A program made the translations under genes and the position numbers. A DNA stretch of 64,000 bases, taken from assembly GCA_012932865.1 (NCBI GenBank), contig SAXG01000079.1, positions 62,001 to 126,000 on the forward strand, read 5' to 3'. Shown in pieces: positions 3,969 to 29,710 of this stretch. Positions within the stretch are counted from its first letter, which is position 1; the number at the start of each line of letters is the position of its first letter. Under the pieces are notes generated by a model that was given only the letters and a program-made list of their open reading frames with translations, made no database searches and had not been told where the DNA came from. The stretch comes from Amylostereum areolatum. Lineage: Eukaryota > Basidiomycota > Agaricomycetes > Russulales > Stereaceae.

Positions 3969-5911
3969 ATCTGGTTCTTGCTAACGAAAGGCGACGGTGA
4001 TCCGCCGTTGTTTTCTGGGGTGTTTGGGACTAGGATTCTAGGCGTTGGTGCTGACGAGTTCTGCGACGTCGCTGGCTCGGTGCTGGGTGTCGATGTTTGG
4101 GAGAAGAACTGGGGGATGGTCGTTTGCTGAATGTGCGGTGGCGCGACCCTTTGAGTCGGTTTCTGTGGCTGGTACATGTTGTCGACTGGCTGGCTCATTT
4201 TCTTCGTGCGCTGGCTTGGACGCGGAGTAACTATGGTTGCTCCCTCTCCGAACGTCATGGCTGGAAAGTGTGATCCTGGTGTCGTGGAGGTTGGGAGTTG
4301 CAAGAGTACTTGGTTTGGGGATGGCAGTTGTCGCAACGATGCTGCTGGCGATGCGTACGTTGTGCTTGCTCTCGAGTCTGGTCTAGAGCTTGGGGCTCGC
4401 GACGACTGTCTGGATGTCACCTGTCTTGATCTGGATCTCCCCTGCTGTCTTCCTCTGGGCTCCTGTGCTCGTTGGAGTCTCGCTTCCCGTTTGGCTGGAC
4501 ACGCGTGGTCCCATGTGGCGTGCCCCGCGTTTCCACAGTTTACACAGAAGTATTCCTCGGGGTTTTGCACTGTACATACCCTGTGGTCGTGTTCTTGGCT
4601 TCCGCACCGTCCGCACACCGTCGCGTTAGGGCACGATGCGGCAAAATGGCCGTCGTGTCTTTGGCAATTGTAGCATACCGTGATGTCGTCCTGTCTTGGG
4701 TCGAAGGTCTTGTGCTGTCCGCCGAGTAGGATTAATCCTCTCTTCCTGAGGAGCGTGGCTGCGTCCTCGGTGCTGGTGATGATTCGTATGTTCGCGACGC
4801 GTTGCGTGGGACTGCGCCTTGCCGGATCCTTGACCCAGTTGATCGCTAGGATTTCCCCTTGCTGCAGCTTGTTCGCCCTTTCCACCGTGCCCGGGAGTAG
4901 TGGGTCCTTGATGTTGTACGTGATCGGAATATACTTTGCGTGCGTCTTGTATGTCCTTGGCTTCACTGTGCATTGGTTTCCTCCATCGAATTGCGTGTTG
5001 AATGATGCTCTATGGTCTATAATCTGAAGGTGCCTGACAACTCCGGTGTCGTCGGCTTCTAAAACGAGTCCTCCGTTAGCGAGGATGAGCGCCGATATGA
5101 ACTGACCTTTGTCTTCGCCGTGGTACGGCGGGTTCATGTGTTCTAGTGCGAGGTTTGCTCTCAGAACGAGTATCACGGGCGTAGTATCTGCATTCTTGAA
5201 GAAGTTGGGTCTGTCGGGTGGAGGGTTGACCATAACTTGATGTTTCTTCTTGTCGTACCTCTCGCGTTTCTTCTTAGGTTCCGGGGCTGGTTTCTTTGCC
5301 ACATCTGCGTACGAGGCTTGGTGTTGCTGAGCTGGGCTTCCTTCTCCTTCGTAGGTTGCGGTGAGCGGCGCGATGTTGTCATGGATGAGTTGGGCAGCGT
5401 TTTGTAGTTCGTCTCGTATCTGTTCTACGTGGCGATACGTTACCTCTCGCTCTTTGGCCATTGTCTCTTTCATGGTTTCTTCCGTTCGTTCCCTCTGCTT
5501 GTCTATGTGGCTTGTTATGTGGGCTTCGATTAGTGTTTCCATATACGGCACCATGTCGTGGACTGCCTTTTCCGCGACATCTTGTGTCCGTTGTGCTATG
5601 GCTCCGTCTTCGACCTCGTCTAGTATTGCTATGATGTGTATTATGGCCGCTTTTATGTCTGCAAGCGTAGATTGTTTAGTAAGAGATAATAATGCGCGAC
5701 ATACTTTGTCTATGGTTCCCTCTCCTATATCTCTGACGTTCCCGTGTCCTTTCTCCTCCATCCATTTCATCGCCTCTTCTAGCTTCTTCTCCTGGCTCTC
5801 GTAGTCCTTCTTTGGTGTACTTTGTGGGGTTGCGACTGATTTCTGTCTATTGGGCTCTTTGTCTTTCGTGGATGTGCCACGTGACATCCCTGATGATGTG
5901 CTGGCGCTCAT
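3935..5911 (-). CDS. LINE ORF1: gag-like RNA-binding protein with three CCHC knuckles
   Basis: The 658-residue product has a basic/Ser-rich start, a coiled-coil-prone charged segment (about residues 100-190), a central globular part and three consecutive zinc knuckles at about residues 425-485: CYNCQRHDGHFAASC, CGRCGSQEHDHRVC and CVNCGNAGHATWDHAC. A basic Arg/Ser-rich stretch and a Pro/Ser/Thr/Gln-rich tail follow. This is the standard design of LINE ORF1 proteins that coat element RNA in a ribonucleoprotein particle. The frame is intact. The stop (TAA 3937-3935) overlaps the start region of ORF2. The sequence upstream of the ATG is open in the same frame for about 45 codons and is hydrophobic, but has no ATG. 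Confidence 0.9.
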   Translation of the reverse strand: MSASTSSGMSRGTSTKDKEPNRQKSVATPQSTPKKDYESQEKKLEEAMKWMEEKGHGNVRDIGEGTIDKVCRALLSLTKQSTLADIKAAIIHIIAILDEVEDGAIAQRTQDVAEKAVHDMVPYMETLIEAHITSHIDKQRERTEETMKETMAKEREVTYRHVEQIRDELQNAAQLIHDNIAPLTATYEGEGSPAQQHQASYADVAKKPAPEPKKKRERYDKKKHQVMVNPPPDRPNFFKNADTTPVILVLRANLALEHMNPPYHGEDKGQFISALILANGGLVLEADDTGVVRHLQIIDHRASFNTQFDGGNQCTVKPRTYKTHAKYIPITYNIKDPLLPGTVERANKLQQGEILAINWVKDPARRSPTQRVANIRIITSTEDAATLLRKRGLILLGGQHKTFDPRQDDITVCYNCQRHDGHFAASCPNATVCGRCGSQEHDHRVCTVQNPEEYFCVNCGNAGHATWDHACPAKREARLQRAQEPRGRQQGRSRSRQVTSRQSSRAPSSRPDSRASTTYASPAASLRQLPSPNQVLLQLPTSTTPGSHFPAMTFGEGATIVTPRPSQRTKKMSQPVDNMYQPQKPTQRVAPPHIQQTTIPQFFSQTSTPSTEPATSQNSSAPTPRILVPNTPENNGGSPSPFVSKNQMWSKTANNRAY

Positions 5912-6159
5912 CTCTATGGTTTTCGCTTTGTTTCTCTTGTACTCGTAGTACGCGAACAGCGTGGTGATGGAAGCAGAGATTATTAGGATATAGTCTATCT
6001 TGTCTGAGTAGCTAGCGGCCGTCCAGCGAGGTTGAAGTGCCGGTGTCGCCTAGTGCTGGTGGTGGTCGCCAAGAAAGAAGTCCCACGCAATGTCGTTGAC
6101 GAGGTATAAAGTGGCATGCTCAAACAGACCTCCAGATTCAGTCTGCGCGCCAGAACTGT

Positions 6160-7600
6160 ATGGATCCCGAGAAGGGATTCCAGTACTTGGTCCTTTGCTT
6201 CGGGCTCTTCCATGCAAAGATGGCTGGATGCCGCCTGGTCATCAACGAGCATTGGGGCAAACCGAACTCAGAGTGGCCAGGAGGTCTCTGCTGGGAGAAC
6301 ACTTTCCTTCGTCGCAAGGCCGTGTCAGCTGGATGGAAAAACAAGAAGTCTACACCATGGGCTCCAGCGCATGATCTCATCCGAGTCTTGCTACTGGCGC
6401 ATGTTCGCGATGGGTTCCGAATCCACAGCGGCGAAGAAGATATTCAACAGTGGGCACAAACGGCGAGCTTGGACGACTTCGAGCAGGTTTCTAGTGCGGT
6501 GCTGCAGGAGCTCTTCTCGACGCAGGCGGCGGACCATTTACGGGATATGCCTGATGCGGATCGGGACTATACATGCGAGAACAATGTTCTCTATAATCGT
6601 GATGCACTTCACTACCTAGTCTTCGTAACCGCGATCAAGCGTGGCGATATTGGTTGTGTCGTCAATGTCCTCCGAGTTTGGGGTGTCATGATGCGCGGGG
6701 TCATGCCACGCTACGCAGACGCTATCTTTGAGACGCTGGCGTGGCTAGAAAAGTGCGATCCTAAACTTCGGTTGGTCACTCAATCTATAGGCTATCATGG
6801 GTACCAACTGTCTTGTCCTCTCAGGTCCCTCTTTTTGCACAACTGGCTTGTCAACCTCACTGGACACGAGGACAGATTTAAGGAAGTTGATCTGCTCCAA
6901 GAGCACCAGAATTTTTGGGCCAAGGTATGTCCGATCGTCATCCCAGATTATATGCTAGCAATCAAGCTCACGCAATTCTTGACAGGTCATGTACACGGCA
7001 AAAGGTGTAAACAAAAGCTGGAAATGGTTGTCTATGATAACGGTCTGTATCTTCACACTGCGCGACGCGATGCGGACTGTTCACAAGGCCTTCAAAATAC
7101 CGGATTATGGTATTCACCACTCAACACCCGCCAGTCAGAATGAGGTTCGCGAATTGGCCGACGAGCTCAAGCGCGGAAGGCTCCAGGAATATGTGCGCAA
7201 CCGACCTGCACAAACCTTCATTTCTCCCGTGCGCGATATGTTCCACCATGGTGCCGACTATGCAAATCAACCCAAGGCCTTTCATGCGTTTTGTCAGGAC
7301 CCGCGCCGTGCACGGTACGCGAAACCGACGACCGTGTTGCCCACGAATCAGGCAGGCCCCAACGAGAGCATATTCTCTGAACAGCGTGTACCTCCTACCT
7401 CACCGCCTTTGGGGGCGGTGGAACTGGAAGGAGTCCATGACAAAAATGTGCAGGAGGATGACAGCCTTGATGACTGGCCAACGGAAGCTGACCTTGCGGT
7501 GGATGACGAAGAGTTCTATGATCTTGGAAGCAACATCCTTGCGAGGGCCATTGAGATGATGGAGGACTTGGACATTCTCGGAGATGATATGTATGACTGA
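6160..7600 (+). CDS. DUF6589 domain protein, 5'-truncated, two exons
   Basis: Joining 6160-6924 and 6986-7600 removes a 61-bp GTATGT...ACAG intron with a CTCAC branch-like site and gives 459 residues. The spliced product reads FQYLVLCFGLFHAKMAGCR near the start, then LYNRDALHYLVFVTAIKRGD, LLEHQNFWAK-VMYTAKG across the splice, and an acidic tail ending LGDDMYD. These blocks match the DUF6589 family, which is common and often multicopy in Agaricomycetes and has no known biochemical role. Family members are usually much longer at the N-terminus. Here the frame extends only about 20 codons upstream of 6160 before a stop, next to the LINE 5' end, so the gene is probably a remnant. It converges on the helicase gene with a 303-bp gap. 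Confidence 0.75.
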
Positions 7601-7903
7601 GCTCTGTACCTTATATGGCTTGAAACTTGGTGGGGACGGACTGGAACAAGGTTGAGAATCATATGGATTATATATAAAGGTCATACTGGTCTAGTTAAGC
7701 ATGGCTGTATTTTAGTTTAAGGTGTCTTTTGCTGTGGAACCCGTATACATCTCGCAGAGGGTCCCCACGCACGGTCATGTGACCATCCGGAAGTCGTGTC
7801 CTTGGTGCAATGTCAATCGCATGTTCAGGTTGCACCCGTTACCGGGTGAGAGTCACCTAGTTTCGCAACATGGGTGATATAAACATGTCCATGGGATGCA
7901 ATA
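7601..7903. other. convergent intergenic spacer
   Basis: This 303-bp stretch lies between the stops of the DUF6589 gene (+) and the helicase-bromodomain gene (-). It is AT-richer than its surroundings and includes GATTATATATAAAGG near 7666-7680. I see no open frame with coding character and no inverted repeats. It probably holds both 3' UTRs. Confidence 0.6.
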
Positions 7904-10545
7904 CTACGTACTGTTATGCATAACCAGCGAGGTTGCACCAGGTAACTCCGGGTTTTGACGAGCATGAGTGAGCAGGTACTCCGTGACCACCTGCTGGAGT
8001 TCAAGCAAATCGTACCAGATCTGAGAGCCTTCCTCATGAAGCTCGCGTGCATTGTCAAACATGGTTATCCAGTCCGCAAGGAATGTACCTAGGGAGTAGT
8101 ATCCATCGTGAACTAGAGCGATACGGGCACGGATTCCTGATATCGCGATCGGCTTTTCGATAGTTGCATAGTAGTCGGGATGGTGCTTTGATTTCCATGC
8201 TTGTTACGATTGGTTTTACATGGAAAGATAGACGGACGTACATTCTTGGGTGGGAGACGTTCAAAGTGAGAGGCGCGCTTGTGTCCATCGGACGCGGTCG
8301 ACACACGAACACATTCAATGCAGCCCAAATAAACCTTTTTGAGCTCTTCACGCATCTTCCTTCCCTCACGATGGGTAGCCTGTCCTGCACGCGGGCCTAA
8401 TCCGATGTTGTCTTCGGGTGGAGCTAGCATTGCAGGGAACGAATCGCGCATCATCACTTGCAGTGCAGCAAGCACTTCCTGTCCGTACCTCGGCACCCAG
8501 TGCCAGCGAACGCGAGACTCAACATCGCCCATCGTGTTCAAAAAGCTTGCGCCTGACGCAAGCCCAGCCACCACTGTATCACTCATAATCGAGCGGCCGG
8601 TCACTAAGCTTTGATCGAGCCAATCCCGTATGACAATGGCTGCGCGCAGATCCTTGAGCACATTCAACGCAGCCGCCTGAACATCGGGAGGGCTCTGCGC
8701 TCGGCGTCCGGCTGTGCGCTTGAATGGGTCATCCAACTCAATGACATCGCCAACGAACTCGCGTGGGCAACAATTGTCACAACCCTGCGAATGGGATGTT
8801 GCATCGATGTTGGCGAGAGACTCTAATCCGAACCCATGAGTGCAAGGAGAATGCACATTCAAGAAGTTACGCACCTTTGCTACCATTCTCAAAAAACTCG
8901 TCCCAAGGAATACGTCGACAATGCTCCGTAGCAATGTAGCGCGCAAGATACAGCTGGTCACGTGTTACGAGCTGTCCTTCATATGCTGCTACCCTTGCAC
9001 TCCGGCCATGCACTGCACTCGTCGACTCTTCAGCCATTGTCTCTGCACGGATCCCATCAACATCCCTCTCGTTTGTCGGTGCAGGCTGATGACCTTGTGC
9101 GGGCAGAGCATCCACTGCCGCTGGCCCCATGGCTGTACCTTCAGAGTTGGTCCCTGCGAGCGAGGTGACAGACTTGCGATAGTAGGCGGCCGATACATAT
9201 AGTATGCCCTCTCTGGATTGTGTTGGGTCGCGCGCACAGCGACCGAGCTTCTGGACCAGGGAGCAAAACGTCTTCGGCGCCTTCCACAGGATGACACGAG
9301 TGATATTCCGTAGATCCATTCCCTACACGCTCGTCAGATGGTATTCAACAAGGAGAAGGCTATATACTACATACCCAGCCCAACGCGTCCGTGGCAGGAA
9401 CAATGCGGATGCGCGATTCAGACAGGCTTTGCAGAATGCGAGCTTTGTCGTCATCATCAATGAAGCGATGGTAGAACTCCACCACTTCGTCTGGGATCGA
9501 TTCAGGCAGATGTCGCCGAACGAAGTCTTGAATTGCTTCTGCATCCACGCGGTTGTTGACGTAGACAAGGGTTACCGGGATGTCTTCCGGTGCAGTTGTG
9601 TTGACTGGGACGAGCACGAGAAGGTCGGCAAGGCTGTCTTCGGGATGTTGCATCGTCCGCACCGATAACGTGATGTTGGGCTTCCTGTTTGACACCTGAA
9701 CGCGCACGGAGTCGGACTCCAGCCTCAGCCTCTGTTGGATGTCCGCTATTATTGCGGCGGGAAGTGTGGCAGAGCATGCTAGCACCGGAGTCCCCGGTTT
9801 GAGACTCGAACGGAGTGCGCCGAGCTCTCTAAACTCTGGGCGAAAATCATCCATTCCCCACTCGGAAACAGCATGTGCTTCGTCGATGATGAGGCATACA
9901 CACACGTCCCGAAAGTCCTCCGACCTCAAGACTATGCTGCCGAACAAGTTGCCCAACGTGGTCTCTGGTCCAACAAAAGCGACGCGGTACCTGTTCTGGG
10001 CAAGATTCTGTGACCAGATGATGTGAACACGTGCAAAAGCGATCACAACGGTCAAGGTGGACACATATAGTCATAAGCATGTCGATATTTTGGCATTTTG
10101 AATGTATAGCGATGGCGGGGATTCCGTGAGCGTTGAGCAGGGCCGCCTGGAAATGTCTTAGAGATGTAGCCCCTAAATGTACAACGTAAACACACCTGCT
10201 CTTCCATGAGAGCCACCAGGGGACTGATGGTCAACAAACTCTTCTGTGCTTGAGGATCATTGTTGCCGGGCCACCAGTGATAGAACAAAGGAAATAGAAA
10301 AGCGAAGGTCTTCCCAGCCCCTGTAGGAACGTCGAGGATGACACTTTGACCTTGAAGAACATGCTGCCCCGCTTGCTGTTGGAAGCGGCGAAGTCCAGGT
10401 ATGTTGAATGCTTCGCAAAGTCGCCGCTCGGCCTCTGCGAGTCGAGCTTCGTCCAAGGGAACGACTTCTCAAGGCATGATAAGCAGAGAAAGTGGGAGAG
10501 AGTCGGATACTCCCTCCTTTTGCTAGCACGGAAACCCCTAGACAT
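7904..10545 (-). CDS. RecQ-family DNA helicase with a C-terminal bromodomain, seven exons
   Basis: Proposed exons are 10545-10530, 10467-10196, 10146-10063, 10007-9375, 9322-8875, 8822-8242 and 8185-7904, totalling 2316 nt (771 residues) in one frame. Helicase motifs in order: DVPTGAGKT (Walker A), TISPLVALMEEQ, IIDEAHAVSEWG (DEAH), LACSATLP, VTLVYVNNRVDAEA, ATDALGWG-MDLRNITRVI across a splice, and QKLGRCARD (motif VI). A Cys cluster (CDNCC) and a helical region typical of fungal RecQ copies follow. The last about 110 residues read as a bromodomain: ASDGHKRASHFERLPPKN joined to HHPDYYATIEKPIAI, IRARI, then FLADWITMFDNARELHEEGS. The family's acetyl-lysine-binding Asn in the YN pair is replaced (LH here). 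Introns are 49-62 bp. The least certain points are the first 16-nt exon and the donor at 10062 (GTCCAC). Confidence 0.85.
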
Positions 10546-10655
10546 GGCGGAGCCGACACTGAGACAGGGAGGGGGCCGGGGTAAAAAGTATTTCTGCCGG
10601 GGTCTCTGAAAGCTGTCAGTGATGGGGAAACAGGGAGGAGGGTCACCATGGGTTC

Positions 10656-10670
10656 ATATATATTAAATAA
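10656..10670 (-). promoter_or_regulatory. TATA-like element of the helicase gene
   Basis: On the minus strand the sequence reads TTATTTAATATATATG, about 110-125 bp upstream of the proposed helicase ATG at 10545. It is the only AT-rich block in an otherwise GC-rich leader. Assignment is by position only. Confidence 0.4.
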
Positions 10671-10867
10671 TGTCGAGCGGTACAGAAGGCAAGTACAGAC
10701 GGCGAGGGAATGAACCAGAAGGACGCGAGAGGAGGATGCAGCTACAAGTGGCCGCACGCGCACGAAGTGAATTTCGCTAAGTCTCAACTTATCATGGGAA
10801 GAAACTTCCACTCTACTCACTCACGCGTCAAGGACTCCAGTCCCTGCATCGACGTGCTGTTACCGCC

Positions 10868-13719
10868 GGCTCAATTCAGGTACTGGTTTGAGTCTAGACC
10901 TAGCAGGACCCATGCGTATAAAATTGATCCAAGGAAACACCTATATGGCTACGTTCCTCGACGATAGTTTGTCTTTCAGTGCTATCTACTATCTGAAGGC
11001 TAAAAGCGAGTTCGTGAAAGCGTTCGAGCACTTCAGAGCGTGGGCCGAAAATCAGATGGGCAAAAAGATAGGAATCTTCCACTCCGATCATGGAGGGGAG
11101 TTCACTAGTCGGGAACTCGAGGATCGGTTCAAAGAACTGGGAATAGAACATCACATGTCTGTGCCGTACACGCCACAACTTAATGGACGAGCGGAATGAT
11201 TCAATCGTACGATCCTTGAAAAGGCGATGGCTATGCTTCACCACACTGGCCTTAGCTTAGGATTCTGGCAGCATGCAGTTGAAGCTGCTGTCCACATCTA
11301 CAATTGTACACCGACTTGGATCCAACAGTGGCACACTCCGCTTGAGCGCTGGACAAAGGGAAAGGATATTCCCAATGTCACGTACCTTAGGGTATTTGGT
11401 TGCGCTGCTAAGGCATTCATAGTCAAGGACAAACGTCACAAGCTACAAGGAAAGACATTCCCTGCGACGTTCATTGGCTATGAACCCGGTGCCAGTGGGT
11501 ATCGGTTGTAGGTAAAGGAAAAGAGAACTATGGTCATTGCTGCCTACGGCGAGGTAGACTTTGACGAAACCTCTTTCCCGGAGAAACCGAGTTTGCCAGC
11601 TCCGGTTCAGCCGCCACCTGTTGTGCGTCTGGAAGACTTAGTTCCAGATGTCGAAATTCCTGAGAAGCATTGTCACGCTCGACCATCGGCACCTACTCAA
11701 GCCGATCCTGGTCCTGCAGCAGACAAAGAAAAGAAAGACGGCGGCAAGGAAGAAGTTGAAACCCCACTGTCCGAGCATGAAGAGGAAGAGGTCAAGGAGA
11801 CGGAGTCTGTCATCTCTGATCTCACCACCCTTTCTCTGTCCCCTTCACCACCACAAACTCCACCGCGTACTCCTGCAGTGGGAGTTACACCGCTCCCACA
11901 AACTCCTCAAACTAGTCGGTACCACGACGCTCTGGCAAACCCCCCACATGCAGACTACTCCCCACCTTCGCATGAGCCTGTCACGCCTGAACAAAGGCCA
12001 TGGCGGAATTGTGCAGGTTTGAACCCGCGCTACAATAATCCAGATAATGCGCACGGTGCAGGGAGGTCTAGCCAGGTCGATGCGACTATAGGCAGACGAG
12101 GAGGTCGTCGTTACGTAATGGGAGGAATGCTTTCGCTTTTGGCTTTGCTAGATACAGCAGCATCGCCTGACCCACAGTCTTTTGGGGAAGCAATGGCATC
12201 GCGCGAAGCGGCGCAGTGGAGGGAAGCGTGTCAATATGAGAAAAATGCGCTAGACAAAATGGGAACTTGGAGATTGGTGGACAGACCCAAGGATGCGAAC
12301 GTTATCACTTGCAAATGGGTCTTCAAGCGTAAATCAGACACGCTATTTTGTGTTCGCATGGTCGCTAGAGGCTTCAAACAGGAGTATGGCAAGGATTACA
12401 CGGAAACCTTCAGCCCCATTGCCCGGTTTGAAACAATTCGTTTCTGCCTTGCGTTGGCTGCGCAAGAAGATTGGGAAATACATGGCATGGATGTCAAGTC
12501 GGCGTTCCTGCATGGGCAACTGGAGGAAGAAATCTATATAGAGCAACCAGAAGGTTTCGTAGATCCTGCACATCCGGAGAAAGTCGTCTTACTGCTTAAG
12601 GCTATCTATGGTCTTAAACAAGCTGCTAGGCAGTGGAACGCAGTAATTGATGCACTCCTAAAGGAGTTGGGCTTTGTCCGTACTTATTCGAACACGGGAT
12701 TATACGTCTATCGTCGACAGGAGGGGAACACAGTCATCATTTTGATACTGTATGTTGACGACATGGCGTTAATGGGGAACTCGCTTAGTGAAATCAAGCG
12801 TATCAAAAGTGCCATCGCTAGTCGGTTTGAGATGACGGACCTAGGGGAATTGTCTTCTTTCCTTGGGATTCGAATCATTCGCGACAGAAATCAGAAGACA
12901 ATCGAGATAGATCAAAAGCGGAACATAGCAGAAATGCTTGCCCGTTTCGAGATGTCTGAAGCGAACCCCACTTGCACTCCCCTGCCATCCGGTATTGTCC
13001 TTGAAAAGGCAACCGAAGACGCAGACCCGCACACTAGGACGTACTACCAGTCTCTCATTGGCAATCTCATGTACATCGCCATTGGTTCTCGTCCGGACAT
13101 TGCGTATGCGGTCACACGGCTGGCACAGTTCAGCTCGAACCCCACTTTGGCCCATCTGAAAGCGGCGAAGTACGTTCTGCGGTACATTGTTGGTACACAG
13201 GACTATCACATTCGCTACAATGGCAAAGTGAAGGACAAGCTATTTGGCTTCTCTGATGCGGATTGGGCAGAGAATAGGGATAATCATCACTCAACATCTG
13301 CATACGTCTTCATCTACTCCGGCGGCGCCATCGCCTGGATGTCAAAGAAGCAGAAGTCGATATCTCATTCTACCCATGAAGCGGAGTACGTCGCAATGGC
13401 AGAAGCGGCAAAACAGATGGCTTGGTACAGGAACCTCTATCAAGAGATCGGCTACCCGAGTCAAGTGCTTTTTACCTTGTATGGTGACAACCGGGGCACA
13501 CTTATAAGTGCACAAAACCCTGTCACTTGTAAAAGTCTAAAGCATATTGATATTCGTTGGCATTACATTCGGGAATGTGTCGATGATGGATTGGTTTCCT
13601 TGGTTCATGCCCCTTCAGCGGATATAGTGGCAGATGCTCTGACCAAGCCTGTTCCTTATGACACACACGTCCGTTTGAGTGGGAGGATGGGTTTAGTAGA
13701 AGCAAAGGAGAGTCGCTAG
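10868..13719 (+). pseudogene. copia pol (integrase-RT-RNase H) with two in-frame stops
   Basis: The frame opens with SLDLAGPMRIKLIQG, giving the first integrase Asp. HSDHGGEF supplies the second, and GRAE followed by TGA then FNRT supplies the Glu. TGA at 11197-11199 sits where relatives have Arg. A second stop, TAG at 11509-11511, follows GYRL. From 11530 a clean 729-codon frame encodes a Pro/acidic linker, RT (WVFKRK, FSPIARFETIR, MDVKSAFLHG, YGLKQAARQW, YVDDM) and RNase H (GFSDADWAENRDN, SHSTHEAEY, DALTKP). RT and RNase H motifs look intact, so decay is recent or limited to the 5' part. Confidence 0.92.
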
Positions 13720-14519: not shown

Positions 14520-14939
14520 TGTCACAGATCACTCCATTTCTCTCTTCATTTGCAGACCTTGTACATGCGACACATCACGGCACATGACTTTCCCTTGCAT
14601 CACATGCCCCAATGACGTCATTGCCTGGACTTCTGAATGGGGTTCCGCATCCTTATCTATGACATCATTGCTCCGGACTTCCGTCCTCCGCCCCATGACT
14701 CCTTTCTTATTGTTCCCCCGCTCATACCACTATTGCATTACATTGCATCATCATTCTCACTTGTATATAAGGACGGTATCTCTTTTCCCTTTTCCTTAGA
14801 CTGTCCATCTCGTCATACGGTACTGTAGCGCACATTGCACTACCCTAGACCCCGGCACTCTCGAATCTATTTTCTTCTCGCTCCTCCCATTGTCGCGACT
14901 TAGGCAGCTCCTTCAGTCTCATAAACTGTGTTTCTGACA
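14520..14939 (+). repeat. gypsy 5' LTR
   Basis: The 420-bp sequence aligns over its whole length with 21160-21575, with scattered substitutions and small indels (roughly one difference in ten bases by eye). It has a TATATAA box at 14764-14770 and the shared downstream block with CGTCATACGGTACTGTAGCG. The divergence between the two LTRs indicates an old insertion. Confidence 0.93.
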
Positions 14940-15121
14940 CCTGGACAGTCTACCCCTATGCCTACCTCACACCTCTCTCCCCATTTACCCCTGCCATCTC
15001 TACAACATTAAAACCCCTACACCACGGATCTCCCAAATGCACCGGTCTTCCTCCCGTTCAACGGTAAACCAATTACTCCCCGAGATGACGCACCTCTACC
15101 CTACCCCTAGTCCGACACTGT

Positions 15122-20100: not shown

Positions 20101-21027
20101 AGTGATGGCACGGCCGACATTCTCTTTGACAAGGTATACCGACACTACGGCTTAGCAGACAAGATCATCTCGGATCGTGGACCCCAATTTGCTGGACAGG
20201 TGATGCGTACACTCAACGAGAAGCTCGGGATCAAGTCCGCCCTCAGCACAGCGTATCACCCACAGACAGACGGCCAAACTGAACGCGAGAACCAGAACCT
20301 CGAGCAGTTCCTGCGAGTATTCTGCAACTACCGTCAAGACGACTGGGTGAAGTGGTTGCCCTTCTTCGAGTTTTCTCACAACTCTCGCACCCATGCAGCT
20401 ACTGGAAAGGCTCCCTTTGAAGTCCTCTACGGCTCCTCCTGAAAATGTACCCATCCGTAAACCCGTCCTCAAAGGTCCCCGCAGTTGAAGAACGCCTCCG
20501 TCAACTTGAAGAAGTCCGACAGGAGATCAAGGCCAAGCCTTGCCCTCGCATCAGACTTGATGAAGCACTACAATGGCGACACGGNNNNNNNNNNNNNNNN
20601 NNNNNNNNNTAGGTCAGCGAACAACGCAGTTTTGCCGTCGGAGACAAAGTATGGCTAGAAGGCAAAAAATCTGAAGACGACGAGACCGAAAGCTAAGCTT
20701 GCTGCCAAACGATTTGGACCCTTCGAAATCATTGACGTCATCAGCCCAGTCAACTACCCGCTTGAAGCTGCCGAAGACGTGGCGAATCCATCCGACTTCC
20801 ATGCCTCGCTGCTCACCGCGTACAAGGAGACAGCCGCTCACGGGCCAAATTATGAAACGCCGCCACCACCTCATTGACGATGAAGAAGAATACAATGTTG
20901 AAGACATTGTCGACTCTAAACCACTCATAACAAGAAAGGCATTCAGTACCTCGTCAAGTGGGCCAGCTATCCCGACTCCGAAACACTGGCTCCCGCGTTC
21001 GTCGCTCTCAGGTTACCGACATGATTG
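17116..21027 (+). pseudogene. gypsy pol: protease, RT, RNase H, integrase, chromodomain (frameshifted, with gap)
   Basis: 17116-18390 carries the aspartic protease (ALLDSGTEGIIL, ILGTDWLDEHNP) and the start of RT. Near 18341-18350 the frame shifts by one base in an A-run (FVKK then KDGKLRPVQDYRELN in the next frame). 18219-20015 carries RT (RWGYNNVRIKEGDEWKAAF, IYMDDILVF), RNase H (VEVDASDFATGGILSQ, YDKELLAI) and the integrase zinc region (HESPLAGHPGRFKT, CATCQSTK). A second shift at about 19905-19945 leads to the integrase core (STDFI, SDRGPQF, YHPQTDGQTERENQNLEQF). The assembly gap interrupts the C-terminus. FAVGDKVWLEGK, LAAKRFGPFEI and a chromodomain-like EYNVEDIVDS / IQYLVKWASYPDSE follow in different frames. 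The element would need all three domains to integrate at heterochromatin, so it cannot move on its own. Confidence 0.93.
20585..20609. other. assembly gap of 25 N
   Basis: A run of 25 N lies in the integrase C-terminal region of the gypsy element. The true size is unknown; the reading frame differs before and after it. Confidence 0.99.
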
Positions 21028-21159
21028 ACACTTTCCACAAGCGCCATCCAAATGCGCCCCGCCTGTGCGTTCCCTCGCATCTCCTTTGACGATTTCCTCG
21101 CATCCACCCTTGCAGATGACATCGCGCTCCAGGCGAAAGCGCATCTTAAAGGGGGGTAA

Positions 21160-21575
21160 TGTCATGGATCGTCCATTTCTTTCTTGTTTGCAGACCTTGT
21201 ACACGCGACGTGTCACGGCACATGACTTTCCTTCGCATCACATGCTCAACGACGTCATTGCCCGGACTTCCGAACGGCGTTCCGCACCCTTATCTATGAC
21301 ATCACTGCTCCGGACTTCCGTCCTCCTCCCCATGACTCCTTTCTTATTGTTCCCCCCCGCTCGCACCACTATCGCATCGCATCGCACCATCGTTCCCACT
21401 GTATATAAGGACAGTATCCCTTTTCCCGTTCCTCAACTGTCCATCTCGTCATACGGTACTGTAGCGCACGTTGCACTACCCTAGACCCCGGCACTCTCGA
21501 ATCTATTTTCTTTCTCGCTCCTCCCATTGTCGCGACTTAGGCGGTTCATCGGTCTCATAAACTGCGTTTCTGACA
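21160..21575 (+). repeat. gypsy 3' LTR
   Basis: This 416-bp sequence starts TGTCATGG after the purine tract and ends GTTTCTGACA, matching the 5' LTR. TATATAA lies at 21402-21408. The base after it begins CCCGTGGAG, which is also the first unit of the 14-bp palindromic repeat. Confidence 0.94.
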
Positions 21576-21576
21576 C

Positions 21577-22005
21577 CCGTGGAGAATTGAGTCGGAGATT
21601 CCCTGCAGGATTCCCCTTGGTGCATGTAAAATGACGACTCGCCCTTTGCACTGCCCAGCACGAGCGACGTGTACGTATGTTTTCGTGAGACATGTGCCAC
21701 AACACCTACGGAAGGGGCCACAGCGCCGAAAATGGGCTGCGAAATCAAGCCTGGGATCTAATTTACCACGAACATTGTCCCGCGAGAAATTTGCCGTGGG
21801 AAATTACCCATGGCAGGATCCCCATGGAAACGTCCCCGCGGCATCTTCCCCGCGGAGAATTCTCCGCGGCGGAATTCCCTGCAGAGACGTCCCCGGGGAC
21901 ATTCTCCCCGGCATATTCCCGTGGAACACTTTCCGCGGCGAATTCCCTGTGGAGAATTTCCAGCGGCGCATTCCGATGACGCAATGTCCGTGGTAATCCC
22001 CGGGG
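21577..22005. repeat. 14-bp-period array of alternating palindromes
   Basis: From 21780 to about 22000 the sequence falls into about 16 units of 14 bp (three of 13). Core starts are at 21780, 21794, 21808, 21822, 21836, 21850, 21864, 21878, 21892, 21906, 21919, 21933, 21947, 21961, 21974 and 21988. A typical unit is CCGCGGAGAATTCT: a 6-bp palindrome plus an 8-bp palindrome. Individual units differ, but many stay palindromic with a different centre: CCATGG (two), CCGCGG (four), CCCGGG, CTGCAG; spacers GAATTC (three), GGATCC, GACGTC, AAATTT. About three more units lie at 21577-21628, touching the gypsy LTR. There is no coding potential. Confidence 0.9.
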
Positions 22006-22410
22006 GCTCGACTTTGCGGGCTGTTTTAGCGCCGTGTTGTAGTAAGGCCAGGCCTTTTCACCTGTTCAGTGAAAACACTGGGTCAGTCTGGTATCAGGCA
22101 TGCAATCGATTGATTCAACAAGGAGCAAACGCAGTAAACGAGTAGATGAAAGAATACATTGAACAACAGGAGACTACGCTGTGTGAGAGACAAGGAAGCT
22201 CCGCAAACTCCCCGTTCAAAGAGGCACTCATTGACACTTGGATGGCACCTTTGTTGGGGACCGCCTACCATCGATGATGTTGTCGGCACTCCGCCGCCGG
22301 GCGACCCACTGGTCTTCGCGCAAAGTGTCATACCGGCCGGTTGGCCACCCGCAGCTACTGTGGCCACATGATCCCTACCGCCACTGCAGCATTGAGGCCG
22401 GCTCCGCGTA
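22006..22410. other. unique spacer before the tandem duplication
   Basis: About 400 bp without recognisable gene, repeat or RNA. It ends where similarity to 26745 onward begins (TGGAGAAACAAGG). Confidence 0.55.
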
Positions 22411-24295
22411 TGGAGAAACAAGGGGCGCAAGGAAAGAAGCGGCCCTTCGTTTCGTCCTCTAGACGTGGCCGTCGACCTCGACGCTGTTCATAGCAGCGTC
22501 GTCGACGAACGCGAGCGGAAATCCTGGGGAACGGACCCCCTGGCCTCCCAAAAGTCGGCGTCCGAGAAGAGTGGAGAACTTACCGTCTTCGTCGATGAAG
22601 GATGTTCTCATTGCCTCGCAACCGACGGTCTCGTCGCCTCGTCCTAGTCTCCTCCTCTTAGCCTGGGCTGAACATAGTGGGCGGAGCGCGTCTGGGGGCG
22701 GCACGCACGTTGTCGTCGCTGTCGACCGAGATGGCATTTCATCGTGTCGTCAAGCCATTTAGTTGTCTGAGTCGGCGCTCATCGTGGTAGATGGCGAACC
22801 AACCCGTCGTCGTCACACGGTTGGCGACCGGTGACATCGTACGGTGGAGACGCTGATCGCGTCGTCGTACTCGTCGTCGTATTCATCTTGCCATGAAGCT
22901 GGGCGTCGACCTCCGCCTCGTCCATGGCTCTCCTCATCGCGAAACTGTAGTCCTCATCCATGTTGACCATCCTCATCCTGGGGCCGAACGAGGCCGTAAT
23001 CTTGCGCATCGAACGACGCTTGACTCGCTCCAGAGTCCCTACGTCCCCCGCATTCCCCTCCAGCGAGTGGCGAAGGCACCGCACCCTCCGGCCGCTCGAT
23101 CCTCTCAATGCACCAAAGCGTGTTTTGTGGCCCCACGCATCCGTTCAGGGCCAATATACGTGCGGAAGAAAAGGACTGGGGAAGGGGATCGAGGGCTGAG
23201 GGCGAGAGGGGAAAATGGACAGAGAGGGTTGGAAAGGAACGAAATCGGGGAGACAGGCGAGGGCGTCGTGGGGGTGTCGAGGAGAGCCGGAGGCGCGCGA
23301 GCAAGGAAGAGGAATAGGTAGAAGTCGAAGAACGAGGAGGCGGAGAGGCCCACGAGGGGGTGGCAGGGAACAGTCGGAGGCACGCTAGAATACGACGTGA
23401 TACAGAGAGGGATGTGGGGGGGGTGGAGGGGAGAAGGGGGCGGGGCGGGCCGGGGAGAAGGCGGGAGAATGGCGGCTGGGAGAAACCGGGGGGGGGAGGG
23501 GGGGGGAGGAGAGGGGGCGGGGAGAGAGAGGGCGGGAGAAGGGGGCGGGGAGAGGGGGCGGGGAGAGGGGGGGCGTAGGGGGGCGGGTGAGAGGGGGGGG
23601 GGGGGGCGAGCCGGGCGGGGAGAGGGGGCAGGGGAGGGGGGGGGGGGGCGGGTGGGGCGGACGGGGAGAATTGGCGGGGCGGGGGGCGGGAGAGGGCGGG
23701 GGAGAAGCGGGGGAGCGGGGGGGAGGTGGGCACAGCCGGCGGGGAGAGGTGTTGTGGAGGGCGGGATAGAGGGGGGGGGGCGGGGGAGACGGGGGTTGGG
23801 GGGGGGCGGAGGGGCGGGGGGGAGAGGATGGAGGGGGGGGGCGGGGAGAGGGGCGGGGCGGGGAGAAAGGGGGGGGGCGGGGGGATGGCGGGGGGGGGGG
23901 GCGGGTGAGAGGGGGGGGTGGGGGGGGGCGGGGAGAGAGAAATGATGGGAACGAGGGACAGAGAGTTAGTTGCTGTAGAGGGGCTGCGCTGGAGAGAAGG
24001 GGCGGTCGGGGTCGGGGTATCGATATGGCCAGACGAATCTTGAGAATGAAGGCCACGCGGAGACAGCGAGGGGGGCCAGGATCACTGCAGCTTCGGCTAG
24101 CGTGGAGCGAGGAGAGCTGCCTGGCTTCTCTAAACGCCATCGCAACACGTCAGTCTAAGCCCCAAACCCCAAAAAAGACGACGAGCGACAGGCGACTTAC
24201 CCGTTCGAGCTCTTCATAGGCTGTGAATCATTGTATCCTTCGAGGCGTATCGATTGTTAGGAACGCGAGTCAAGTCTGTAGGGCCGGCCCGACAT
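22411..24295 (-). pseudogene. copy A of the acidic Pro/Ser-rich orphan gene (degraded)
   Basis: The start codon (24295) and the exon 1/intron layout of copy B are recognisable, but an extra G in GGGCCGGCCC shifts the frame after four codons. The exon 2 start keeps EARQLS and LAEAAVILAPLAV. Downstream, pieces of the DEDGKFSTLLG block and the acidic stretch can be found in changing frames. The 3' quarter of the gene is missing at the left boundary. It cannot be translated as assembled. Confidence 0.8.
23402..23942 (+). repeat. G-rich minisatellite expansion (GGGGGCGGGGAGAG type)
   Basis: About 540 bp of almost pure purine plus strand, made of short G-runs separated by CGGG, AGA and GAGA. At the matching point of copy B (about 27730-27752) there is only a single GATGGGGGCGGGGAGAATG unit. 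The complementary strand gives spurious proline-rich open frames. Many G-runs of three or more could form quadruplexes. Confidence 0.9.
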
Positions 24296-25995
24296 TGTGT
24301 GGGTCGATGGGGGATGGAAAATGTACTGTGTGATGTGGTGGGAGGAAGAGAATGGGGGGGAGGGAATGCGTTTGGAACGACGCACGTGCCCCCCCGCCCC
24401 GGGTTGAACAGAGGGAAGACAATGCCAGAGACATCCAGGGACGGACGGACACGTCTGTTAACTCCGCCTTGGTGGTTGTCCAAGGGAAAGAAGAAAAAGT
24501 GGCGGGTCCCTCCGCTGAACAAAAGGGAGGAGGGGAGAAAAGAAAAGAGTAGATTGGGTTCGAAAAATTCGTTTGGGGGATGTCACTGAGGTTGTTCCGC
24601 TCTCACTTTTAGTCACAAGTGTCCCGTCCGCGCACCGTATTTGTGCTCAGAATGGGGCGAGTTGCGCGGGCAGGACGTACCATCTACGAGAGGGACTCGC
24701 GGCAGGGGGGACGTCCTCTCCTCCTCTGTGCCTGGAAGTTTCAAATGCGACGAGGACCTACCAGCTACGCCGAACGCCTCGAGGGAGACCCGCGCCCGAA
24801 ATCTAAAATTCGTCGTCCGCCGTCCCCGCTTCCTTAACACAGGATCGCCTCCACACGTTCGTGCACGCGTCCACGAGGATGGAGGACCATGCACCCTCCA
24901 TCGCAAGAGTCTCGGACGCTGGGACGTCTGACATCCGTCCGCAAAGCCGACACAGAAAGCAGGGCCTGACCAGTTTCCCCATATTCCCAAAAGCGAGAGT
25001 GCGCATCCCAACGCTATCTCGCATTGGCAAGGCCGGCACGGTCGATGTCTCGAAGCTGCGTTCGTGAGAGAAAACGGATGCCTATGGACCTGCTCTGCCT
25101 CCAATCGTCGCCTCGTCCATAGTCCCGGATCGCCTCGCGTCGAGCCGCCCCGGTCTTTATCTCCCACGCCCGACCTCTGACTTTTCCATCCATCAGTTAC
25201 CGCGCGCCCATTGCCTTGCGACGACGAGCTGCGACATCCGTCCACACCCCCCAAACGAACGGCGACGACATCGCCTGCGGCTGCCGGCACGCGCATGGCA
25301 TGTCCCAGCATGACGGTAGGCCGCGGCTCTTTCTATGCTGGGTCCATTCTGACCCTTGCCCGATAACGAGCACATGCGCATCCTCGGTCGTTCTTTCTAC
25401 CCAGTGCCCGTCACCCAACTGATCGCAGATACACACACACCTCTGTCGCCCACCTCGTCCAAGCGATCGCATATACCGGATCCGACGCTCCCTTGACGAC
25501 ACCACGCCACCGATAACAAGCGTGTTCGCACTTCCGGGGATATCTTGACCTGCCCTCGTGTATAGGAAGTTCCATCCCCTACGGTAACGGGCGGTGGGTC
25601 CCTCCAACACTACACAACCGGACTGGCATTACTGGATTAGGACTTATCTCAAGCAAGTTGCGACCACAGAACAGCAGAGACCAAGTTCCCGTCCATCCCG
25701 TCGGGTCCGAAATCGAGATTCCCGGAGACCATGAGCAGGAAGGGGGTGTATCACCGCTCCTGCTCCCGATTTTACCGCGACACCATATGCGACGCGCCTT
25801 CCGACCCAAACGTAGAAGATTCGACTTAGAACAAGGATTAGGGTCGGATCCGGGTCGTCGAGAAAGAAGAAAATATGGGTGAGCCGCGAGGGACAGGGGA
25901 GGGCGTGGATCGTCGGACGGGCTCGGGACCGGGTGGGCGCGGGGGGTACGGAGGGACTTAGCGGTGTTGGAGGAGGAGAGGAGAGTTCAGGAGGT

Positions 25996-28100
25996 TTAAA
26001 TGTCGAACGGGTCGGGTGTGCGCGGACGAGCGGCGCGGCGCGTGCGGGGCGCAGGAGCGAACGCGAAGCGCTCGATCTCGTCATCTTGGCCGCGGGCGAC
26101 GGGCGGGAGACCGCGGCGAGGCGCGACGTTGCGTCTGAGGGTGTGCACGCGCCACTCGTCGGCGGGGGGAGTCGCCCACCTGTCGGCCTCCGCAGACAGC
26201 GCAAGGTCGCGCTGGAGCGTTGCGTGGTCACGGCGCGGTCCGAGAGGGGTGCGGGGCGCGGGCTGGGAGAAGGAAGGAGGCTCGAGGTCGAAGTCTGAGT
26301 CTGAATCGGAGACTTCGATGAGGGGTGAGTGGGATGGGCGGGGAGGATGGGCGGACGGAGTCTGGGGAAGACGCGGGGCGATGGGGAGGGAGTAATGGCG
26401 GCGGAGACCGGGGGAGGCCTGAGGGGGAGAGCGGCCTTTGTACGAGGGTGGGCGACTGCTGCCCGTGGATGCGTCAGATTCGGAGTCAGAGACGTTGGCC
26501 ATGAATGCGTCGCCTCGCTCGTACATAAACGGCGTTCTGGGCAGGCGACGGTTCAAAGAGATGGCCTCGCGGCGCTGGAAGGGGACGCTGGAGGTAAGGG
26601 GTCCCACTCGAACCGGAATGCGGCCAGCCATCGGCATATCCTCGTCCTCGTCCTCATCTTCGTCTGCCGAGTCGATCTCGATAACGTCCGACTCCACGTC
26701 GTTGTATTCCGCCAGCACCCCGAGCGGGATCCTTGGGAACGGCCTGGAGAAACAAGGGGCGCCAAGGGGAGAAGCGGCCCCTTCGTTTTCGTCCTCGTAG
26801 ACGTTGGCGTCGACCTCGAACGCATGTTCATCCGCATCGTCGTCCGACAGAACCGCGAGAGGAATCCTGGGGAACGACCTGGCCTCCCAAAAGTCGGGCG
26901 TCCCGAGAAGAGTGGAGAACTTCCCGTCTTCGTCGATGAAGATTGTTCTCATTGCCCTCGAACGCGTTCTCGTCGCCCTCGTCCTCGTCTTCCTCTTCGT
27001 CCTGGGCTTGAACATAGCTGGGCGAGCGCGTCTGTGGCGGCACGTTGTCGTCGCTGTCGACCGAGATGGCATCCTCGTAGTCGTCAGCATAGTTGTCCTG
27101 AAGTCGGCGCTCATCGTGGTAGATGGCGAACCCAACCCCGTCGTCGTCACCGGTGGCTGACCCGGTGACCTCGCTACCGGTGGAGACGCTGATCGCGTCG
27201 TCGTACTCGTCGTCGTATTCATCTTGCCACTGAAGCTGGGCGTCGACCTCCGCCTCGTCCATGGCCTCCTCATCCGCGTAACTGTAGTCCTCATCCATGT
27301 TGACATCCTCATCCTGGCCGAACGAGCCGTAATCTTGCGCATCGAACGACGCTTGACTCGCTCCAGAGTCCCCTACCGTCCCCGCATCCCCTCCAGCGAG
27401 TGGCTGAGGCACCGCACCCTCCGGCCGCTCGATCCTCTTCAATGCCCCAAAGCGGCCCCACGCATCCGATTCAGGGCCACTATACGTGGGAAAGAAGGAC
27501 TGGGGAGGGGTGCGAGGGCGAGAGGGGGAAAATGGGAAAGAGAAGGGGTTGGAAAGGACGAAATCGGGACAGGCGATGGGGCGTCGTGGGGGGTGTCGAG
27601 GAAGGAGCCGGAGGCGCGCGAGCCCAGCGAAGATGAATAGGTAGAAGTCGAAGAACGAGGAGGCGGAGAGGCCCACGAGGGGGTGGCAGGGACGTCGGAG
27701 GCAACGCTAGAATACGACGTAGATACAGAGAGGGATGGGGGCGGGGAGAATGATGGGAACGAGGACAGAGAGTTAGTTGCTGTAGAGGGGCTTGCGCTTG
27801 GAGAGGAGGGGCGGGTCGGGGTCGGGGTAGTCGATATGGCCAGACGATCTTGAGAATGAAGGCCACCGCGGCGACGAGCGAGGGGGGCCAGGATCACTGC
27901 AGCTTCGGCTAGCGTGGAGCGAGAGAGCTGCCTGGCATTCTAAACGCCATCGCAACCCGTCAGTCTGAAGCCCAACCCCCAAAGACGACGAGCGACAGGC
28001 GACTTACCCGTTCGAGCTCTTCATAGGCGTGCATCATTGTATCCTTCGAGGCGTATCGATTGTTAGGAACGCGAGTCAAGTCTGTAGGGCGGCCCGACAT
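25996..28100 (-). pseudogene. copy B of the acidic Pro/Ser-rich orphan gene (frame interrupted at least twice)
   Basis: Exon 1 is 28100-28008 (31 codons, MSGRPTDLTRVPNNRYASKD...). A 68-bp GTAAGT...TTTAG intron (28007-27940) follows, and exon 2 continues in frame with NARQLSRSTLAEAAVILAPL, then a Ser/Thr/Pro-rich region (FSPPPSLSVSTSYSSVASD). One frame change near 27570-27590 leads to FFPTYSGPESDAWGRFGALK and a strongly acidic stretch. A second at about 26945 leads to IFIDEDGKFSTLLGTPDF and the C-terminus, with WATPPADEWRVHTLRRNVAP and DEIERFAFAP, stop at 25996. No domain is recognised, but the conserved blocks recur in the 56-58 kb gene. The breaks may be sequencing errors in homopolymers rather than true mutations, because copies A and B disagree at several of them. 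Confidence 0.75.
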
Positions 28101-29710
28101 TGTGTGGGTCGATGGGGGATGGAAAATAGATACTGTGTGATGTGGTGGGAGGAAGAGAATGGGGGGAGGGAATGAGTTGGAACGCCGCACGTGCCCGGTT
28201 GAACAGAGGGAAGACAATGCCAGAGACCTCCGGGACGGACGGACGTCTGTTCAACTCCGCCCTTTGTGGTGTCCCAAGGGAAAGAAAGAAAAGTGGCGGG
28301 TCCCTCCGACTGAAAAACGGGAGGAGGGAGAAAAGAAAGAGTAAGATTGGGTTCGAAAATTCGTTTGGGGGATGTCCTGCCGGTGTTCCGGCTCTCACTT
28401 TTAGTCACAAGTGTCCCGTCCGCGCCCGTATGTCTCAGAATGGGGCGAGTTGAAGCGGGCAGACGTCCATCTACGAGAGACTCGCCGGCAGAGGGGGACG
28501 TCCTCTCTCCTCTTGTGCCTGGAAGTTCAACTGCGACGAGACCTCCCAGCCCGAACGCCTCGAGGGAGACCCGCGCCCGAAAATCTAAAATTTCGTCGTC
28601 AGCCGTCCGCTTCCTTAACACAGGATCGCCTCCACGTTCGTTGCACGGTCCACGAGAGACCATGCACCCGTCCATCGCAAGATCTCGACGCGGACGTCTG
28701 CACGTCCGCAACGCCGACACAGAAGCAGGGCCTGACCACGTTTCCCCATATTCCCAAAGCGAGCGTGCGCATCCAAAGCTATCTCCGCATATGGCAAGGC
28801 CGGCACGAGTCGATGTCTCGCAAGCTGCGTTCGTAGAAACGGATCGCTATGGACCTGCTCTGCTCCAAATCGTCGCCTCAGTCCATCGTCCCGGATCGCC
28901 TCCGTCTAGCCGCCGTCTTTATCTCCCCACGCCCGACCTGACTTTCCATCCATCAGTTACCGCGCGCCCATGCCTTGCGACGACGCTGCCGACATCCGTC
29001 CACACCCCCAACGGAACGGCGACGACATCGCCTGCGGCTTCCGGCACCGCGCATGGCATGTCCCGCATGACGGTAGGCCGCGCTCTTCTCTGCTGGGTCC
29101 ATCTCGACCCTTGCCTCGATGAACGAGCACACTGCGCATCCTCGGTCGTCTTTCTACCCAGTGCCCGTCAACCCAAACTGATCGCAGATACACACCCACC
29201 TCTGTCGCCCACCTCGTCCAATCGATCGCATATACCGGATCCGACGCTCCCTCTGACGCACCACGCCAAGATAACAGCGTGTTCGCACTTCCGGGGATAT
29301 CTTGACCTGCGCCTCGTGGTATTCGAAGTTCCTCCCCTCCGAACGGGCGGGGTCCCTCCACACTACACAACCGACTGGCATCCTGGATTCGGATATCTCA
29401 GAGCAAGTGCGACACAGCACAGCAGAGACCAAGTCCCGTCCATCCCGTCGGGTCCGAAATCGAGATTCCGAGACCATGAGCAGCAGGGGGTGTATCACGC
29501 TCCTGCTCCCGATTTTCCCGCGACACATATGCGACGCGCCTTCCGACCCAAACGTAGATTCGACTTCGAAACACAGGATTGAGGGTCGGATCCGGGTCGT
29601 CCGAGAAAATATGGGGAGCAGGAGGGACGGGGAGCGGATCGTCGGACGGGCTCGGGACCGGGTGGCGCGGGGGTACGGAGGGACTTAGCGGTGTGGAGGA
29701 GAGTTTAAAT
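26745..29710 (-). repeat. right copy (B) of the 3-kb tandem duplication
   Basis: Partner of 22411-25990. It includes most of the orphan gene and about 1.6 kb upstream of its start (28101-29710). That upstream part has no feature I can support; a 411-codon open frame on the plus strand is destroyed in copy A and looks like chance. Confidence 0.9.

Follow-up and report, generated by a model that had tools for sequence, protein, structure and literature searches.

A CpG-decayed CCGCGG array in Amylostereum areolatum and the six-cysteine gene family beside its intact relatives

In the basidiomycete Amylostereum areolatum a short tandem array is made of units that look palindromic while their bases differ from one unit to the next, which raises the question of what keeps, or seems to keep, the symmetry. 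The array lies in a stretch of 64,000 nucleotides, here called the window (C160:62001-126000), of a 57-Mb genome in 182 contigs. A preliminary description reported some 16 units repeating every 14 bp, each composed of two palindromes whose halves changed together, and proposed hairpin- or cruciform-templated repair, a folded RNA, or an array of sites to which a symmetric DNA-binding protein attaches. The periodicity is borne out at 21780-22008 (Table 1). The autocorrelation at 14 bp is 0.54, compared to a mean of 0.26 and a maximum of 0.37 in 1000 dinucleotide shuffles, and 226 bp contain 15 exact 6-bp palindromes, where shuffles average 5.2 and reach 13 at most. The double palindrome of each unit proved less regular: in a fixed register exact palindromes are present in only 7/15 cores and 4/15 inner spacer hexamers, and the spacer palindrome GGATCC falls one base out of register when the units are read.

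A closely related array is found on three further contigs, so the window array is no local assembly artefact, a possibility that the preliminary description had allowed for. The longer repeat common to C164, C111 and C129 extends over some 8 kb; these copies are mutually ~99.6% alike and may for that reason be duplicates or alleles. A second subfamily of the repeat (B) is present on C134, C158 and C72. The window array is a fragment of such a repeat, severed at the 3' LTR of a Ty3/gypsy element, and the side that carries a gene in other copies has been lost. The array was considered as a part of the LTR itself, but the match between the two LTRs stops at 21577 and 14941 and no array follows the 5' LTR. 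No matching target duplication was found at the flanks of the gypsy element, so its junction with the repeat fragment may be a rearrangement.

Table 1. Features of the array and its surroundings (window coordinates)
Feature	Position	Strand	Remarks
5' LTR of the same Ty3/gypsy element as the 3' LTR	14520-14941		BLAST
3' LTR of Ty3/gypsy element	21160..21577	+	BLAST; TG...CA ends give 21160-21575
Fragment of longer dispersed repeat, carries the array	21576..22398	+	~90% identical to C164:138277-139130, C111:449492-450346 and C129:10371-11224; adjoins gypsy LTR on left
Last-unit remnant of second array (array 1)	21576..21588	+	array 1 precedes the main array in related copies
CCGCGG-type array	21780..22008	.	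~16 units, 14-bp period, length off by one base in a few units
Core CCATGG, both CpGs decayed	21808..21813	.	CCGCGG in C164, C111 and C129 copies
Core CCATGG	21822..21827	.	CCGCGG in 3/3 related copies
Three intact CCGCGG cores, at 21836, 21850 and 21864	21836..21869	.	
Core CTGCAG	21879..21884	.	CCGCGG in 3/3 related copies
CCCGGG	21892..21897	.	one base longer in related copies
Intact CCGCGG core	21933..21938	.	
Core CTGTGG, double hit, non-palindromic product	21947..21952	.	CCGCGG in 3/3 related copies

Other repeats surround the fragment. Immediately to its right, 22411-25975 and 26745-29701 form a direct duplication of ~3-4 kb with 87-89% identity, and ~530 bp at 23416-23949 are G-rich repeats of the GGGGGGA type with many overlapping periods. 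Further transposon-type frames cluster at 1491-13719: a LINE-like endonuclease/reverse transcriptase (- strand), DUF6589 (+) and a Ty1/copia-type reverse transcriptase (+). Downstream of a subfamily B array on C134, nested direct and inverted repeats have been inserted (L047:2704-4535); they measure 209 bp (100% alike), 264 bp (97%) and 192 bp (99%).

The source of the palindromic look becomes apparent when the window copy is set beside its relatives. The cores of the C164 copy are exactly CCGCGG in 10/16, and where the window has its four double-hit cores, each of the copies on C164, C111 and C129 reads CCGCGG (Table 1). CCGCGG contains two CpGs, each of which can become TpG or CpA, and two of the four double-hit products, CCATGG and CTGCAG, are palindromic. 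Palindromic products account for 3/4 double hits in the window; chance expectation is half, and three or more are expected 5 times in 16. Since the non-palindromic double hit CTGTGG and the non-palindromic single hit CCGTGG occur as well, templated repair is not needed, and the single-hit cores reveal that paired positions also change independently, an outcome that the preliminary description had named as counting against its own reading. The related copies are one base longer at CCCGGG, which is therefore the outcome of a one-base deletion or insertion rather than a paired substitution. CpG transitions in either direction make up 14/27 substitutions between the window and C164 arrays. CpGs of the C164 array that are now TpG or CpA in the window number 10/33, compared to 6/20 and 7/28 in the two flanks; array CpGs thus decay at a flank-like rate in the window copy. 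The spacer palindromes GAATTC, GACGTC, GGATCC and AAATTT are also found in related copies and are accordingly older than the changes in the window copy. The palindromic look stems from a palindromic core, CCGCGG, with decaying CpG steps.

Column shuffling (5000 shuffles) was used to examine paired positions in the window, in A2, in A1 with B, and in the pooled 31 units. The window cores have three both-side changes compared to a mean of 1.05 (4.5% of shuffles as high) and 35/45 paired core cells compared to 32.0 (7.1%). For the window spacers the corresponding values are five both-side changes compared to 2.6 (4.5%) and 30/54 pairs compared to 25.1 (2.7%). Compensatory change in the window is at best marginal against these controls. 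Both-side core changes elsewhere are nil in A2 and one in A1 with B (42% of shuffles); both-side spacer changes are 4 vs. 1.65 in A2 (3.1%), 2 vs. 2.1 in A1 with B (73%) and 6 vs. 3.6 in the pooled units (9.7%). Outside the window a marginal pairing signal is thus seen in the A2 spacers and none in the A2 cores or in the cores and spacers of A1 with B, so that the related copies do not bear out compensatory constraint. The claim that palindromy is kept while the bases change, both halves together, does not survive these tests, which are marginal in the window and lack the core signal in related copies.

The marginal pair statistics of the window are one of three observations in favor of palindromes maintained by a folded RNA or by hairpin- or cruciform-templated repair. 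The second is that folding energies are low compared to dinucleotide shuffles (z of -5.6 for the window, -6.4 for C164 and -4.7 for C95), and the third is the C95 array, which folds better than nearly all shuffles of unit order and orientation (1/200) and contains 39-nt arms that are 82% complementary. Against these stand shuffles of whole units. When only unit order was changed, the fold was at least as good in 62 (W), 27 (A2), 98 (B), 95 (L057) and 75 (C1) of 200 trials, and in 6 (A1), 17 (C95a) and 22 (L067). The order of units thus has little effect on folding, save a mild one in A1, A2, C95a and L067. When orientation was shuffled as well, C95a retained an unusually good fold (1/200), whereas the other seven arrays folded worse than most shuffles (144 to 199 of 200). 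An RNA hairpin is therefore no common feature of the arrays. In window positions 21000-23000 Rfam gave 0 matches at the gathering score. The folded RNA of the preliminary description thus receives little support and, with CpG decay accounting for the symmetric changes, maintenance by RNA folding or templated repair is highly improbable.

The gene side that is missing from the window can be studied beside intact arrays. In the C129 copy a 548-residue open frame ends ~360 bp before the first array; the C111 copy has 284 open residues only, and the subfamily B copies contain a stop. Differences between A and B fall mostly on third codon positions in 4/5 windows of the conserved part, which indicates that the open frame is or was a gene. 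Its product has a six-cysteine cluster, CX2CX6CX12CX2CX6C, followed by a variable linker and then a long coiled coil; residues 166-221 of a modelled 260-residue region (mean pLDDT 55) are confidently predicted as helix. A genome search with three family members as queries gave nine loci with a gene body: C111, C129, C164, C134, C72, C95:2243601, C95:2318203, C95:2167204 and C1:2382851. The gene at C164 is interrupted by gypsy elements, and the C1 copy is spread over several frames. Between groups the proteins share 26-53% identity, with 68% over one short piece. No homologues of the family were found in the protein collection when one member or a six-row alignment served as query, each search scoring 7997 candidates. 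Fragments from the 5' end of the gene, cut by a gypsy LTR, are present on C150, C133 and C164. To each side of them 1.5 kb were read and contained no array; they are left out of the nine loci because their 3' parts were unread. These fragments (L058, L059, L060) are 99% alike, and in each the same LTR truncates the gene near residue 36, a pattern suggestive of contigs that are duplicated or allelic.

A CCGCGG array is present on the 3' side in 9/9 gene loci in which that side was read. In the three loci measured (C129, C95:2243601 and C95:2167204) the distance from stop codon to array is 173-469 bp. Exact cores number 3-6 per 150 bp at the six gene loci scored and at most 2 in 46/46 background tiles, which overlap one another and of which 33/46 were taken from the window. 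When CpG-decayed cores are counted too, the tiles reach 4 (2/46), as does C95:2167204, and the other five gene loci have 7-10. On contigs up to C95:2300484, a triple array lies within 1.5 kb of 3/4 family loci compared to 0/17 matches to the zinc-cluster profile PF00172, 12 of them over the cut-off and 5 under (p = 0.003); the family locus missed by the triple-array pattern is that on C1, with a 15-bp array and partly decayed cores. The C95 loci are not independent draws, since 2.16-2.37 Mb of that contig is rich in arrays.

The arrays themselves are more widespread than the gene. Genome-wide, CCGCGG-N8-CCGCGG occurs 53 times vs. 4 for the reversed pattern, the N9 spacing 65 vs. 6 times, and triples 119 vs. 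6 times. Among the first 50 of the 119 triple matches, a family gene is present at only 3 of ~20 array loci. Loci without a family gene beside them are on C2, C5, C31, C34, at C72:1679 and C72:5576, and elsewhere in C95:2.16-2.30 Mb, with C2:1161091, C72:5576 and C95:2289756 among the examples. Nearly perfect 15-bp arrays are seen at C2:1161091-1161216 and C72:5576-5717, CCGCGGCAATTGTCC and CCGCGGCGATTGTCC, and protein searches gave no family gene near either. Linkage to telomeres was considered and rejected: the TTAGGG tracts on array contigs C1, C2, C34 and C95 are all hundreds of kilobases from the arrays, and among the matches listed, up to C113, there are none on C72 or C111. About 200 kb of C95 (2158940-2365959) contain many CCGCGG arrays and duplicated segments, as well as an RPB1 fragment (L066:207-1058) and a Kei1 match (L065:647-1672). 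On the same contig a perfect 27-bp inverted repeat with arms 29 bp apart (L067:1300-1382) lies 175 bp from a CCGCGG array.

This distribution, with many arrays away from genes and clustered in few regions, favors a strong rival to a binding array: a hitchhiking minisatellite, whose partly self-complementary 14/15-bp unit is carried in duplicated, rearranged, transposon-rich segments, linkage to the gene being ancient co-duplication and no protein reading the sites. Homogeneous units at C1, C2 and C72, a prevailing orientation of the units (7/8 arrays fold better when orientations are randomized), and the match of decay in the window copy to that of its flanks point the same way. The minisatellite is harder to reconcile with arrays that persist on one constant side of the genes across three DNA clades of loci (A with B; the C95 pair; C95:2167204 with C1), between which the surrounding DNA is unalignable. 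Three clades are counted and not more because the C95:2167204 and C1 genes align as DNA (66% over ~1.9 kb). Between clades there is no DNA alignment save for 149 and 107 bp upstream in A that match the C95 gene; in blastn searches no array aligns between clades, nor does the C95:2167204 array with that of C1.

What is common across the groups is CCGCGG and the 14-15-bp step, while the spacers differ. Between units of the C95 array identity is 0.88 in the core and 0.31 in the spacer (chance 0.27), and the difference of 0.57 is above 60/60 shuffles. CpGs occupy four of the six positions in the core, so neutral decay should erode the core first. The retention of a hypermutable core beside spacers near chance identity argues against a minisatellite, and this survival in C95 is the best hint of selection. 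The excess of core over spacer is within the shuffled range in W, B, L067, L057 and C1 and at the shuffled maximum in A2, and conservation of the array between A and B is no better than that of its surroundings. On balance the hitchhiking minisatellite is a distinct possibility, if not one that we would expect to prevail.

Multiple and broken copies might instead belong to a DNA transposon, with the arrays as its subterminal repeats and the zinc-cluster-like product as its DNA-binding protein. Around the C164 array the flanks are partly inverted (26/34 bases alike, E 3e-4), and arms of 122 nt that include the array are 70% complementary. A foldback element was rejected on this account, the signal being weak, present in C164 and absent in the window, where no inverted flanks were detected. 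No transposase domain was found in the frames scanned, which are part of all frames, no element ends or target duplications were seen, and copies continue for kilobases past the array. The transposon is improbable.

The kind of protein encoded beside the arrays bears on the remaining proposal. Zn2Cys6 domains (PF00172) have the cysteine motif CX2CX6CX5-12CX2CX6-8C, and in ordinary zinc clusters the basic CXXCRXRKXXC half comes first. The cysteine spacing of the family, CX2CX6CX12CX2CX6C in 4/5 aligned members, agrees with the motif; the fifth, L047, has one residue fewer between the last two cysteines. Compared to the profile, 4/5 pieces of 61 residues give matches with E up to 10, and the best, from one member, reaches 23.0 bits (cut-off 21); four 42-residue pieces score 11.8-20.7 bits, all under the cut-off, and whole proteins at most 11.5 bits. 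When the genome was searched with PF00172, none of the 44 matches was a family locus. The pieces align to the profile as two separate stretches whose order is swapped. The basic residues are in the second cysteine half, as CXXCRXRKXXC, and not in the first. Exchanging the halves gives one continuous PF00172 match in 4/4. The gain over a loop-shortened natural order is +1.1, +3.5, +0.2 and +1.2 bits; since the loop-shortened order scores nearly as high, most of the gain from exchange comes from loop length. Among solved structures the matches were either weak or of coiled-coil type. When the domain was used by itself, GAL4, LAC9 and LEU3 pair with it in swapped halves (E 4.8-9.3, weak), and in AlcR (E 1.2) residues 40-59 pair with the second half of the domain, without exchange. 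A fold search with the domain model, which is poor (mean pLDDT 64), gave no significant match and no Zn2Cys6 entries, an outcome compatible with the fold. The order of the matched stretches suggests a circular permutation of the Zn2Cys6 domain.

Of the three proposals in the preliminary description, the strongest support, through the linkage to this Zn2Cys6-like gene family, goes to an array bound by a symmetric DNA-binding protein. With somewhat less than even confidence, we read the window array as what is left, truncated and decaying, of a CCGCGG array that would serve the linked protein as binding sites. Intact arrays are found a few hundred bases 3' of the six-cysteine gene. Their common core, CCGCGG, amounts to two everted CGG triplets and recurs every 14-15 bp, while the spacer drifts; coiled-coil dimers of the linked protein would bind the CGG pairs, and the dense array may serve self-regulation or the regulation of neighboring genes. 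The array, its mode of decay, the linkage and the cysteine spacing are observed, whereas for the six-cysteine protein we infer zinc binding, dimerization, DNA binding and regulation. The window copy has been separated from its gene, and its CpGs are passing to TpG or CpA as in the flanks; lacking the gene and decaying as the flanks do, it is probably dead. Location on the 3' side is unusual for a fungal promoter site and counts against the binding array. The broader proposition, a lineage-specific family of circularly permuted Zn2Cys6 proteins in which each copy has a tandem CCGCGG array behind its stop codon, persisting while the surrounding DNA becomes unalignable between clades, is rather doubtful. 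If the linkage is functional, the members of this family would be DNA-binding proteins with sites reserved for themselves in an array that follows the gene, and their zinc cluster would be one with exchanged halves.

These features can be compared to known systems. CpG-directed decay of repeats has been described in basidiomycetes (PMC4352252), and the bias from CpG to TpG or CpA in the window copy resembles it. The difference is that in the window the target is a palindromic, CpG-rich unit, so that paired change seems to appear. The array is thus a worked case in which CpG decay of a palindromic unit imitates compensatory change, and an exotic reading, templated palindrome repair, gives way to a testable one.

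The protein family shares with fungal Zn2Cys6 (Gal4-type) factors the six cysteines with permitted spacing, a basic CXXCRXRKXXC half and a coiled coil further on. It differs in that the basic half is second and the PF00172 stretches are swapped and, save in one 61-residue piece, sub-threshold. Among the papers listed in literature searches, none deals with a permuted Zn2Cys6 domain or with zinc-cluster genes that have CCGCGG arrays beside them. By means of the zinc module and the coiled coil, dimers of Zn2Cys6 proteins bind CGG pairs in inverted, direct or everted arrangement (PMC5559640). The closest parallel is Pdr1/Pdr3 of Saccharomyces cerevisiae. PDR elements, TCCGCGGA/TCCGTGGA, have the core CCGCGG, and the everted CGG pair of the arrays, as CCGCGG and as CCGTGG, is identical to theirs (PMC5539612). 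PDR3 has sites at its own gene and is autoregulated through two PDR-type sites (PMC3997011). The Pdr1/Pdr3 sites are few, dispersed and in promoters (four in PDR5, two in PDR3), whereas in A. areolatum they form dense arrays with a 14-15 bp step on the 3' side, beside the gene for a protein whose zinc-cluster halves, unlike those of Pdr1/Pdr3, are apparently swapped.
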